From Alphaproteobacteria bacterium (lineage in GTDB: Bacteria; Pseudomonadota; Alphaproteobacteria; Rs-D84), in NCBI GenBank assembly GCA_017503725.1, contig JAFVSL010000008.1:1-64000 (forward strand): a stretch of 64,000 nucleotides of DNA, read 5' to 3'. The position numbers were made by a program, and so were the translations under genes. Positions 13,127 to 17,833 of this stretch are shown here, piece after piece (the first letter of the stretch is position 1; every line of letters begins with the position of its first letter). The notes under the pieces were generated by a model. That model was not told the DNA's origin. It saw nothing but the letters and a program-made list of their open reading frames with translations, and did not search any database.

Positions 13127-14476
13127 TTATTCACTTAGAAATGCACGCAATGCATCACCCGCCAATGGTGTCAATGCGTTGTCTGGGATTGTTGCCGGAT
13201 CAACAATTGAAATCAAACGCGGCGACATAAATACAACCAATTCTGCAAATGGGCTGATTAAGGTTTCCGGTGTTGTAACAAACGAATGTGTTGGAATGCC
13301 AACAATTACATAGTTGTCACCAACGCTGGATGGAATGGTGAACGATGATAATTCGCCATTACTGGTGCGCAGAACAATTTTTGCATCGATTTTATCGCGC
13401 CCCGCGTAATCACCATAGGTTGCCGTTGCACCAATTACCAGGTCTGTTTCAAGGCGTTCTTCTTTGCTGCACTGGCCGATATCAAAGCGTGATTGCCAAC
13501 CGTTCGGGATTACAAATTGACCCTGGGATATTAAAACAACATTTGCCTGTTGTGACAGGAATTCTTGCAAGGTTTTTGTGTTGATTTCAGAACTGGTGAC
13601 AAGTGCGCGTCCAACAACGCCCGGTATCGACATTTTGATATTCTTGTCGCCAAATGCCGGTAACATATTCATCCAGATGATTGGGTTGTCTGTGCGTGGG
13701 TATACACGATAAACATCAATATCCCAGCCAATCATATATTTCTTGGATGCGATGTCGGATATGATTTTTGCAACCTCGCGCTCGGTCTGGTAATTGCCCT
13801 CAAAGGTTACGGTTTTGTCATCCCAGTTGACCAACAGGTTGCGCATATCCGCGCCGTGCATTGCGTCCAGCAGTGCCATAATGATACTCTCGTTCTTTGG
13901 CATTTTGACCAGCCATTTTCCACGATGGGTCAGGTGAATTTCACCAACAGTCTCGTCGTATGAATAATACGCGTGGCCCATTTTTGCCATTAGTTCAACC
14001 GCGTCTGATAATGCACCCGATGAAATCGTGCCGGTGATGCGTTCAATCATTTCGCCATCTTCGACAACGGAAATGTCGGTGCCGTCCAGCAATTTATCCA
14101 AGGCCTGTTTTACGGTTAGTTTTTTAAATTCATAATCTGAAACTTGTAAATCGGGCAGGGGGTCACCCGTTTCCAGACGTACGATTTCAATCTTTTCTTC
14201 GGGGACAATGGAAACAATGTTTTGATTGTTCCAGTCGACATTGCAACGCTTGGGTAAATCAATCGAAAAACGTCGCGCCGTGTCGGTGGTCAGTGCCGCC
14301 TTTTTCGGGAAAATTGGAACCGAATTTTCATCAATAACCAATGTATCAACAACAGTTATATTATCATATTGTGGTTGTTGAAGGGCCTGTTGATTCTGTT
14401 TGGCGCACCCAGACATCAATACCAGTCCAGATATTGCAATTGAAAAATATGTTAAATATTTGTTAATGATTTTCAT
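13127..14476 (-). CDS. Secretin-like lipoprotein (type IV pilus / type II secretion related)
   Basis: A 449-residue lipoprotein with lipobox LMSG-C24, then a Lys/Leu-rich STN-like segment (KKLTVKQALDKLL) and a second N-domain, followed by a C-terminal beta-rich domain ending VVFMSPRLISIV, as in secretin pores such as PilN or BfpB. Secretins form outer-membrane channels for pili or secreted proteins. The start at 14476 is preferred because AAAGGGG precedes it. No other pilus or secretion genes are adjacent, and a Lol operon follows 16 bp later. It could therefore be a pilus secretin away from its cluster or a divergent relative. Family membership is moderately sure. Confidence 0.6.
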   Translation of the reverse strand: MKIINKYLTYFSIAISGLVLMSGCAKQNQQALQQPQYDNITVVDTLVIDENSVPIFPKKAALTTDTARRFSIDLPKRCNVDWNNQNIVSIVPEEKIEIVRLETGDPLPDLQVSDYEFKKLTVKQALDKLLDGTDISVVEDGEMIERITGTISSGALSDAVELMAKMGHAYYSYDETVGEIHLTHRGKWLVKMPKNESIIMALLDAMHGADMRNLLVNWDDKTVTFEGNYQTEREVAKIISDIASKKYMIGWDIDVYRVYPRTDNPIIWMNMLPAFGDKNIKMSIPGVVGRALVTSSEINTKTLQEFLSQQANVVLISQGQFVIPNGWQSRFDIGQCSKEERLETDLVIGATATYGDYAGRDKIDAKIVLRTSNGELSSFTIPSSVGDNYVIVGIPTHSFVTTPETLISPFAELVVFMSPRLISIVDPATIPDNALTPLAGDALRAFLSE

Positions 14477-14495
14477 AATGTCCCCTTTTCCCACA

Positions 14496-14894: not shown

Positions 14895-15284
14895 ATGAGA
14901 ATAAAATTCCTGGGGGTTTTGTTGACTGTTATTGCGCTGGGGGGGTGTGCGTCGCCAAACCGGGGCAGTATTGATGATGCAACAATCCTTAACTGGGAAA
15001 ACGAGGCGGTAACAATGGAACAATTTGTGCGCGATCATCGGTCGTGCCTGGGGATAAATGAGCCGTCTTATCTGCCGCGGTCACGTATTGCAAAATTATT
15101 GTCACCAAATCAAAGTGCATTGATGCCGGATTGGGATGGTTTGTGGGTGACGTTTCAATCAAATGAATACAAAGACGTTGGACAGCGGGCATTGTTGTCT
15201 GTGCCGCGTAATCAATCGTCAAAGACGGTTGGGGCGTACAGACGGTGTATGTTCCGGCGTGGATATCTGCTGCGCGCAATGTAG
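14895..15284 (+). CDS. Small lipoprotein of unknown function
   Basis: A 129-residue lipoprotein with lipobox ALGG-C19, followed by a polar globular part with two cysteines and a basic C-terminus (RRCMFRRGYLLRAM). A longer frame from 14832 is possible, but the signal peptide only makes sense from 14895, and that ATG sits 6 bases after a perfect TATAAT. It is divergent from the secretin-Lol operon, and a terminator-like hairpin follows. No conserved domain was recognised. Confidence 0.7.
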   Translation: MRIKFLGVLLTVIALGGCASPNRGSIDDATILNWENEAVTMEQFVRDHRSCLGINEPSYLPRSRIAKLLSPNQSALMPDWDGLWVTFQSNEYKDVGQRALLSVPRNQSSKTVGAYRRCMFRRGYLLRAM

Positions 15285-15308
15285 TAAAATTACAAGATGT
15301 GAGATATA

Positions 15309-15350
15309 AGACAAGAGACGTGAAATTAAATTTTATGTCTCTTGTTTTTT
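15309..15350 (+). terminator. Hairpin terminator after the lipoprotein gene
   Basis: ACAAGAGAC and GTCTCTTGT form an inverted repeat around an AT-rich loop, followed by a T run. A related direct sequence (GAGACAAGAGAT) occurs without its partner arm at about 27808-27820. Confidence 0.5.
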
Positions 15351-15351
15351 A

Positions 15352-15360
15352 TGATATAAT
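15352..15360 (+). promoter_or_regulatory. Extended -10 promoter of ftsQ, leaderless
   Basis: TGATATAAT is an extended -10 element. The bases GTCGGTT separate it from the ATG at 15368. recF has TATTAT followed by the same GTCGGTT and then ATG at 34705. No ribosome site is present. Confidence 0.55.
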
Positions 15361-15367
15361 GTCGGTT

Positions 15368-16045
15368 ATGAAACGTTCAATCTGGTTTTGGGTGTGTTTT
15401 GTGGTTGCCATATTTATGGCGATATATTTTGCGACACGAATTATTATGGTTGGTATGGGACGGGGAAAACTGGCCCAGGTGCATAATATTTCTATTGTTA
15501 CAGATTCACGCGATGCGGATATGGATGCAATGCGCGCGGCCGCGGGTGGATTGGTGCGAAATTCTTATAATGTGGACTTGGATGCGCTGAATGCGCGAAT
15601 TGGGGCGGTGCCGGGGGTGAAAAAGTCCGCGGTGCGGCGTTTGCCAAATGGAAATTTGGCGGTGCGGGCGGATATGCATCGTGCGGTGGCCCAATGGTCC
15701 GATGGGGCAAGTTATTTCCCGCTTTCTGCCGATGGTACGGTGGTAAATAGCCCCAGTGATGTGCGCGATTTAGGGGCGGTGGTGTTTATTGGTACGCTGC
15801 CAGATGATATATCAGATATAACGGCGGCCGCACGCAATATGGTGGCGGATGTGGCGTATTTAGAATGGATTGAAAACAGACGCTGGAATCTGGTTACGAT
15901 GGGTGGAATTACCGTTATGTTGCCGGAAAATAACCCGGTTCAGGCAATAAGTACACTTATATCTTTAAATCAAAATCACGGGATTCTGGGTAAAAAGATT
16001 CAGGTTATTGATATGCGTGACGATGCACGTATATTGGTTAAATAG
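15368..16045 (+). CDS. ftsQ: Cell division protein FtsQ
   Basis: FtsQ joins the FtsQLB subcomplex that licenses septal peptidoglycan synthesis. The 225-residue protein has one membrane helix (about 5-25), then a POTRA-like domain with VPGVKKSAVRRLPNGNLAVRADMHRAVAQW, and a C-terminal FtsQ beta domain ending in VIDMRDDARILVK. Starts at 15245 or 15359 are also in frame, but 15368 follows an extended -10 at leaderless spacing. The gene precedes the ftsA fusion by 12 bp, as in dcw clusters, but mur genes upstream and ftsZ downstream are missing. Confidence 0.85.
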   Translation: MKRSIWFWVCFVVAIFMAIYFATRIIMVGMGRGKLAQVHNISIVTDSRDADMDAMRAAAGGLVRNSYNVDLDALNARIGAVPGVKKSAVRRLPNGNLAVRADMHRAVAQWSDGASYFPLSADGTVVNSPSDVRDLGAVVFIGTLPDDISDITAAARNMVADVAYLEWIENRRWNLVTMGGITVMLPENNPVQAISTLISLNQNHGILGKKIQVIDMRDDARILVK

Positions 16046-16057
16046 GCGATATGAACA

Positions 16058-17833
16058 ATGAATATGATGGATTCTTGTTTTTTGTGTCTGGATATCGGCA
16101 CGGCGGGTGTTCGTGGTATTGCGCATCATATTAAATCTGGAAATATTGCCAAGTCTGCGGTCTTTTCTGTGGACAGTTTTGATACTATTTTTGCAATTAA
16201 ATCGGTTGTGTCGGCGTTGGAAAAGCAAATTGGCAGAAATCTGGATTCGGCATACATTACCGGAAATTTTGGGCCATCGATTTATCAGGCAACGGTTAAA
16301 AGTATAACCTGGTCGGGGGAACATAAAATCAATCAATCGGATGTGCGGAACCTTATATCGCAAATTTTGCCACCAAAAGAATTTCATCCAATTCATATTG
16401 TGCCGTTGGCGTACAGTCGGCCTGGGGCGCGTGATATGCTGAATCCGGTGGGGTGTGTTGACCGACAACTGGTGGCGTTGTTTGGGGCAATATTTTATAG
16501 ATTAGACAGGTTGGATAATCTGCATTCGTTAATGCATCACGCATATGTTGAACCGCGTGCGTTCTTTGACCCACAGTTTGTGCAAAATGCCGCGTTTAGA
16601 AAGCCAAAACAAAATACTATGTTCATAGATTTTGGGGCGGAATTTACATCTGCGTCAATTTGGACGGATCGGGGACCGGTGTGGCATATCAAGGTTCCGA
16701 TTGGCGGTACAAAGATAACCAACGACATTGCCGATGCGTTCAATATAGATTTTGAAGAGGCCATACGTATTAAACAGGCGGTCGCAGATTTAATACCAAA
16801 GGAAATGGATCGATTTACACCGGCGGATACCGCGTATGGATTTTCACGCGGTGATGTAAATGATATTGTGTTGCCGGTTGTCTTGGATGTGGTTGGTAAA
16901 ATTCGTGATTCTGGGAATGGGGCATTTGAAAAATATCGGCCGGGTCGTATTGTCTTGACTGGTGGCGGGGCCGAGATGGGTGGTGTACGTGATTTGATTG
17001 AAAATACATTTGCCGTCCCGACCGAGGTTATGGGGGGTGATGCAACCGTTCGCGCATTGTCGCAATATGTTTGGAATTTGTTTGCTGGAAAGCGTAATGC
17101 TTATTTGGCGCGCCACGCAAAAATTCATTCTTTTATAGAACGCGTCGGTGGGATATTTACCCCGCGCAAGAAAAAGGCTAAACCAAAGTTTATCCCGATT
17201 TTACCCAGTACACTGTGCTTTGATATGAAACGGCCCGAAACTTATTCTTTGTTCAAGGCGGGTGGAATATCGATGATTCATGTCGATATTATGGATGGGT
17301 TTTATGTGGACAGGGTTGCGGGCGGTATTGATTATATAAAGTTTATAAGAACGCATACGAATGCGCATCTGCACGTGCATTTGATGACGGAAAGTCCCGC
17401 CGTCTGGGCCGCCGATGCCGTTGCGGCCGGGGCAGACACCGTGATATTATCAACAAACACATCGGGGGTACGTAATGCGGTGCGTGTGGTAAAAAGCGCC
17501 GGAAAACGTGTGGGTATTGCGTTGCATCCGGATTCATCGGTGACGATTTTAAAAGATGTTTTGCGTGACCTGGACGAGGTTATGGTTATGACGGTTGTGC
17601 CGGGCGCGGCGGGCCAAGATTTTAGACCAGATTGTCTGCACAAAATTTCGGTGTTGGCGGCGACACGTAAAAAGTATGGATTAAAATTCTTGATATCGGT
17701 TGATGGTGGAATAAATGACAAGACGGCACAAATGTGCTGGGGGGCGGGTGCGGATTTGTTGGTCAGTGGTTCTTATTTAGCAAACAGTCCCGATTTCCCA
17801 TTGGCGGTGCAAAGTTTGTTAAAACACGAATAA
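16058..17833 (+). CDS. FtsA fused to ribulose-phosphate 3-epimerase (Rpe)
   Basis: This 591-residue frame joins two normally separate proteins. Residues 1-372 are FtsA, the actin-like membrane anchor of FtsZ: CLDIGTAGVRG at 10-20, a MFIDFGAEFTSASIW phosphate loop, PIGGTKITNDIA, and the adenosine motif LTGGGAEMGG (300-309). A short amphipathic stretch (about 355-372) resembles the FtsA membrane-targeting tail. Residues 378-591 are an epimerase of ribulose-5-phosphate and xylulose-5-phosphate with S384, H408-x-D410-x-M412, H441, D549 in VDGG and GS (571-572), so metal ligands and acid/base residues appear intact. There is no stop or frameshift between them. The gene follows ftsQ and is followed by tRNA genes. 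Confidence 0.85.
   Translation: MNMMDSCFLCLDIGTAGVRGIAHHIKSGNIAKSAVFSVDSFDTIFAIKSVVSALEKQIGRNLDSAYITGNFGPSIYQATVKSITWSGEHKINQSDVRNLISQILPPKEFHPIHIVPLAYSRPGARDMLNPVGCVDRQLVALFGAIFYRLDRLDNLHSLMHHAYVEPRAFFDPQFVQNAAFRKPKQNTMFIDFGAEFTSASIWTDRGPVWHIKVPIGGTKITNDIADAFNIDFEEAIRIKQAVADLIPKEMDRFTPADTAYGFSRGDVNDIVLPVVLDVVGKIRDSGNGAFEKYRPGRIVLTGGGAEMGGVRDLIENTFAVPTEVMGGDATVRALSQYVWNLFAGKRNAYLARHAKIHSFIERVGGIFTPRKKKAKPKFIPILPSTLCFDMKRPETYSLFKAGGISMIHVDIMDGFYVDRVAGGIDYIKFIRTHTNAHLHVHLMTESPAVWAADAVAAGADTVILSTNTSGVRNAVRVVKSAGKRVGIALHPDSSVTILKDVLRDLDEVMVMTVVPGAAGQDFRPDCLHKISVLAATRKKYGLKFLISVDGGINDKTAQMCWGAGADLLVSGSYLANSPDFPLAVQSLLKHE

Follow-up and report, generated by a model that had tools for sequence, protein, structure and literature searches.

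FtsA is normally understood as the membrane anchor of FtsZ, the usual organiser of bacterial division. Among the obligate intracellular bacteria that have been tabulated, a genome retains both proteins or neither (PMC10591338), and in Chlamydia and Wolbachia supergroup J ftsA is absent together with ftsZ (PMC10591338, Table 2). Chlamydia and the Planctomycetes divide without FtsZ and have kept genes for wall synthesis (PMC4164004, PMC5147048). FtsA alone can form filaments on membranes, and with FtsN it can form MreB-like curved double filaments (PMC7613929). It has also been proposed as an activator of FtsW (PMC10591338).

Here, a family of bacteria is described that likewise appears to divide without FtsZ while keeping wall-synthesis genes but, unlike Chlamydia and Wolbachia supergroup J, keeps FtsA, fused to ribulose-phosphate 3-epimerase (Rpe). 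The fusion was found in a stretch of 64,000 nucleotides (hereafter the window), whose best named relatives are genomes from gut metagenomes, several of them Candidatus Enterousia, a genus placed in Rs-D84, an alphaproteobacterial order with reduced genomes (PMC12306168). An earlier reading of the window made from the letters alone (hereafter the sequence-only reading) knew of no such fusion; the fusion is genuine, and in the open-licence papers searched neither a description of an FtsA-Rpe fusion nor a report of FtsA kept without FtsZ was found.

Architecture of the FtsA-Rpe Fusion

The gene is an uninterrupted reading frame of 591 residues without stop or frameshift. Together with its upstream neighbour it can be divided as follows.

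15245-16045, forward strand: ftsQ, directly 5' of the fusion gene (PF03799, E 1.3e-9); longest reading, the true start being probably further in
16058-17833, forward strand: FtsA-Rpe fusion gene, 591 amino acids; single open frame, conserved across the family
16058-17080, forward strand: FtsA actin-like domain, residues 1-341, with the 1C domain at about 82-165 (PF14450, PDB profile search, AlphaFold, Foldseek, and residues D12, G14, D191, G302 and G303)
17084-17158, forward strand: basic helix, residues 343-367, at the position of the C-terminal membrane-targeting helix of FtsA (model, amphipathicity, charge)
17159-17197, forward strand: linker, residues 368-380, of low model confidence (model, alignment)
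17198-17818, forward strand: ribulose-phosphate 3-epimerase domain, residues 381-587 (PF00834, NF004076, Foldseek match to 2fli, invariant catalytic residues)

Pfam places FtsA (PF14450) at residues 189-324 (E 1.7e-11, passing the Pfam FtsA cut-off) and Ribul_P_3_epim (PF00834) at residues 386-574 (E 1.4e-41). When a profile of 55 homologues was compared with the PDB, solved FtsA chains matched over residues 10-340 (best E 3e-17) with PilM behind them (1e-8), and solved Rpe chains matched over residues 379-589 (E 1e-48). In the AlphaFold model (mean pLDDT 89.9), residues 1-341 adopt an FtsA fold with its 1C domain and residues 343-367 a helix; a short linker, modelled as disordered, leads to the TIM barrel of residues 381-587. 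The relative orientation of the FtsA and Rpe parts is unreliable (pTM 0.61). Reading frame, Pfam, PDB profiles and model thus agree with the sequence-only reading that FtsA is followed in one frame by a complete epimerase.

FtsA structures rank first in Foldseek searches (target TM 0.67-0.75). With the FtsA proteins of E. coli, V. maritimus and T. maritima (PF14450/PF02491, TIGR01174) the fusion shares the actin fold and 1C domain, the nucleotide motifs (in Enterousia), a gene position directly behind ftsQ and a C-terminal basic helix. In contrast to known FtsA, its N-terminal region is about 20 residues shorter, a C-terminal enzyme is added, and no FtsZ partner is found in the genome. PF02491 was not detected by Pfam, although the 1C region aligns and is modelled, and the FtsA part reaches 85 bits to TIGR01174, under the NCBIfam equivalog cut-off of 175.85; on these scores it is a diverged FtsA homologue and not a standard member. 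PilM (PF11104) belongs to the same actin-like superfamily and the fusion gives a weak PilM_2 match, but identity as PilM was rejected, FtsA matching better in both sequence profile and fold (target TM up to 0.75 vs. 0.59) and the neighbour being ftsQ.

The epimerase part shares with known Rpe (PF00834, NF004076; 2fli) the TIM barrel (target TM 0.92, rmsd 1.5 to 2fli in Foldseek) and the full set of catalytic His/Asp, Ser and Met residues, and differs from it in being carried on the C-terminus of FtsA. It scores above the cut-off of NF004076 and under that of TIGR01163 (152.5 vs. 212.6 bits). Residues S384, H408, D410, M412, H441, M443, M511 and D549, the established catalytic set of the epimerase family, are invariant in an alignment of 91 sequences; H408, D410, H441 and D549 had been named in the sequence-only reading and are correctly placed. 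The fusion is present once in the window genome (998 kb, 98.8% complete), and a check proposed at the outset, for a separate rpe, gave a single PF00834 match in that genome, the fusion itself. The Rpe part is expected to be enzymatically active and is the sole candidate of its genome. A separate standard FtsA was not found there either: the fusion-protein query, which does detect standard FtsA in nearly all relatives of the class, finds one match. The gene is predicted to encode one bifunctional FtsA-Rpe protein with epimerase activity.

Between the two parts, the sequence-only reading had placed the amphipathic tail of FtsA at about residues 355-372. A tail helix does lie there, but it spans residues 343-367 and its amphipathicity is weak in the window protein (muH 0.34, compared with a family mean of 0.48 and 0.40 for shuffled sequence). 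The helix is amphipathic in many homologues, carries a net charge of +6 in the window protein (family mean +7.4) and presumably binds the membrane.

Distribution and Origin

An order-wide sample contained the fusion in 143 of 149 Candidatus Enterousia genomes; among the matches listed, which leave out a few of the weakest, it is full length in one frame. Of 23 genomes representing 11 further genera of the family, 22 also have it, as single open frames of about 570-617 codons, so that the joint architecture sought in related genomes is widespread. In one genome (G180) two matched pieces share one frame. The genomes without a match are mostly fragmented MAGs, and one miss (G129; 95% complete, 40 contigs) is unexplained. 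Identical architecture in more than 160 other genomes rules out an assembly error or local frameshift. Although an open frame by itself says little about a fusion, as G060 illustrates, this frame is meaningful because it is kept jointly in all these genomes and its upstream portion is FtsA itself. An rpe within an 891-codon open frame in G060 was rejected as a second fusion, its upstream part being a spurious arginine-rich reading. Plasmid records gave partial matches only, none covering 80% of the query and the best being separate epimerases. Two full-length fusion genes lie on different contigs of one MAG of the genus, G026 (G026:C5 and G026:C32); as the contamination of this genome is estimated at 4%, two mixed strains are the likely source.

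Separate ftsA and rpe genes occur only outside the family, and not in all close relatives. Three sister families have the two genes side by side, overlapping by one base in G048 and G051, and in a fourth sister family, f4 (L112, L114, L116, L121, L124), they flank a gene of about 590 amino acids with its own membrane domain, called ABC-transporter-like here from a reading of its sequence rather than from a family search. In the relatives' genomes looked at, ftsZ lies away from ftsA and rpe. Given the adjacency in sister families, the joining of two genes that were already neighbours is the simplest history. The ancestor would have had rpe directly behind ftsA, the two frames would have been joined once in the ancestor of the family of Enterousia, and FtsZ would have been lost on the same branch. 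The Rpe parts of the fusions form one clade in a tree (support 100/98), which fits a single fusion event, and no reversion to split genes was seen across 12 genera among the family genomes with a match. Fusion and loss of FtsZ map to the same branch, and because each apparently happened once, a link between them is statistically untestable.

FtsA Without Detectable FtsZ

Does the family possess an FtsZ for this FtsA to anchor? TIGR00065 searches, run with controls, found FtsZ in none of 47 genomes of the genus, compared with 18 of 18 genomes from elsewhere in the order and 14 of 14 from a class sample. With the same model, no FtsZ was found in additional Enterousia genomes, among them the single-contig G106 (99% complete, the same place as OX097180.1), or in any of the 23 genomes from the other genera of the family; in those same searches, relatives from outside the family gave FtsZ matches. 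Coverage amounts to about 80 family genomes, one of them a single contig and others consisting of 2-5 contigs. Three weak TIGR00065 matches in the family (<13 bits) were discarded, as they sit in unrelated genes, and PF00091 gave nothing at E ≤ 10 in the window genome. As far as these profiles reach, the family is one without detectable FtsZ in which FtsA is retained. For this reason the proposal of the sequence-only reading, a pentose-phosphate enzyme tethered to the divisome, loses its Z-ring premise and keeps the joining of FtsA to Rpe. The fusion is accordingly an FtsA kept in a family with no detectable FtsZ and joined to the only epimerase, rather than an enzyme attached to a Z-ring.

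The fusion has a shortened loop at the position surrounding E. coli R286. Loss of this FtsZ-contact loop was considered as a signature and dropped, since the loop is also shortened in the FtsZ-bearing family f6 and is not diagnostic.

A separate observation concerns ftsZ in four sister families, where a gene resembling a phage portal (phrog_332, E 1e-82 to 1e-109) is found only a few genes away; in G049 a terminase-like gene is also near. This conserved neighbourhood, prophage- or gene-transfer-agent-like, might have a bearing on the loss of ftsZ.

L160, L162, L157 and L158 (G048, G049, G050 and G052; families f3, f4, f5 and f2): ftsZ near the phrog_332 portal-like gene

Conservation of the Two Parts

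Residues D12, G14, D191, G302 and G303 of FtsA are invariant or nearly so in the 91 sequences, which are mainly from Enterousia. Pairwise comparisons give dN/dS values of about 0.04-0.12 in the FtsA half and 0.03-0.08 in the Rpe half, rough figures that include many comparisons with high dS, and by this measure purifying selection acts on both. Of the two, FtsA is the faster-evolving (mean identity 0.55 vs. 0.73). The nucleotide-binding motifs present in the FtsA part of Enterousia are eroded in genus g28 (L190-L192, L195), which has lost the nucleotide-site aspartates, and in genus g33 (L189, L193, L194) the N-terminus of FtsA is shortened. Fusion and epimerase are intact in both genera, and the g28 protein is still predicted to adopt an FtsA plus Rpe fold (pLDDT 87.7). 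The FtsA nucleotide site is eroding in these two genera, and FtsA function may be fading.

Possible Roles of the Fusion

We lean, by a small measure, towards a bifunctional protein in which a membrane-bound FtsA scaffold serves FtsZ-less division and carries an active epimerase. The FtsA part would assemble on the inner membrane and work with FtsQ and FtsW, placing or activating septal wall synthesis without a Z-ring; the epimerase part would supply the only Rpe activity of the cell from this scaffold and, by oligomerising, may in addition help to connect the FtsA subunits. The filaments that FtsA can form (PMC7613929) and its proposed activation of FtsW (PMC10591338) make a scaffold role without FtsZ plausible. 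Against it stand the faster evolution of FtsA, the changes in g28 and g33 and the weak amphipathicity of the helix in the window protein; moreover, filament formation by FtsA could be impeded by so large a domain behind the helix. A metabolic signal from the epimerase to division is possible, and that the enzyme regulates division is speculation. The fullest form of the idea, that this walled family divides free of FtsZ by an FtsA scaffold carrying its only Rpe, with the enzyme a structural or regulatory part of division that couples pentose-phosphate metabolism to septation, is rather doubtful. With a division protein and a metabolic enzyme physically united, metabolic control of division becomes directly testable, and a family with FtsA and without FtsZ is a natural test of FtsA acting alone and of Z-ring-less division.

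The changes in g28 and g33, where the epimerase stays intact, are the main evidence that FtsA might instead be vestigial, having lost its division role after the loss of FtsZ and surviving only to anchor an essential epimerase to the membrane, to oligomerise it or to keep it soluble, and the lower conservation of FtsA relative to Rpe points the same way. The near-invariant FtsA residues of the mainly Enterousia alignment, the low dN/dS of this half, the FtsA fold still predicted in g28 and the constant position of ftsQ directly 5' speak against such a remnant, which we regard as somewhat unlikely. It is also conceivable that adjacent genes were joined by chance and that both parts work without coupling, the arrangement being kept as reversal is hard. 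Ancestral adjacency, the one-base overlap in two relatives, the single origin and a linker that is the least conserved part of the fusion (identity 0.34) are all consistent with neutrality. The sequence-only reading had allowed for a chance fusion; as a recent accident this is not supported, given one origin (the well-supported Rpe clade) and the lack of reversion in 12 genera, whereas a neutral event that was later fixed is possible. The argument that no matching family genome has a split, even though an uncoupled fusion ought readily to acquire an indel or stop in its linker, counts weakly against neutrality because splitting also needs a new start signal, and overall we judge a neutral fusion improbable.

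Two proteins might alternatively arise from the one frame, through an internal start at the Rpe part or through cleavage in the linker, where model confidence is low. An in-frame ATG is found at residue 382 in 49 of the 91 homologues, but a start there would truncate the first barrel strand of the AlphaFold model (381-384), and only 4 of the 91 have a start-type codon accompanied by a Shine-Dalgarno-like motif. A conserved internal start for a separate Rpe is absent from the window gene, which has TTA at 382, no in-frame ATG in the junction and, as its sole in-frame start-type codon across residues 342 to 384, a TTG at 350. Production of two proteins seems extremely unlikely. Division could, finally, be more ordinary than it appears if a highly diverged FtsZ were hidden in the family. 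FtsZ does erode in the order, as a degenerate homologue in G050 of family f5 attests (L157:3519-4745; 31 bits to TIGR00065, no recognisable GTP-binding loop, no Pfam match). TIGR00065 caught even this copy, yet gave at most 13 bits in the roughly 80 family genomes, and an order-specific FtsZ profile, searched without a positive control, found nothing at E ≤ 10 in 59 genomes of the genus; a hidden FtsZ is very unlikely.

Remaining Division Genes and Neighbourhood

FtsQ and FtsW, the partners proposed above for the FtsA scaffold, are both retained. The ftsQ gene lies directly 5' of the fusion in 80 of 80 loci, and two SEDS proteins are encoded in nearly every genome of the genus searched; in the window genome one is beside mraY and murG (FtsW) and the other beside PBP2 and MreC (RodA). 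MreB, RodA and MrdA have been reported for the order Rs-D84, and the non-oxidative pentose-phosphate pathway, minus transaldolase, for most of these genomes (PMC12306168). On the opposite strand, a lipoprotein-like ORF of 455 amino acids (13127-14494, reverse strand) falls in no confident family and gives a weak hint of a secretin STN domain (E 0.004); a homologue of it is found near ftsQ in 69 of the 80 loci.
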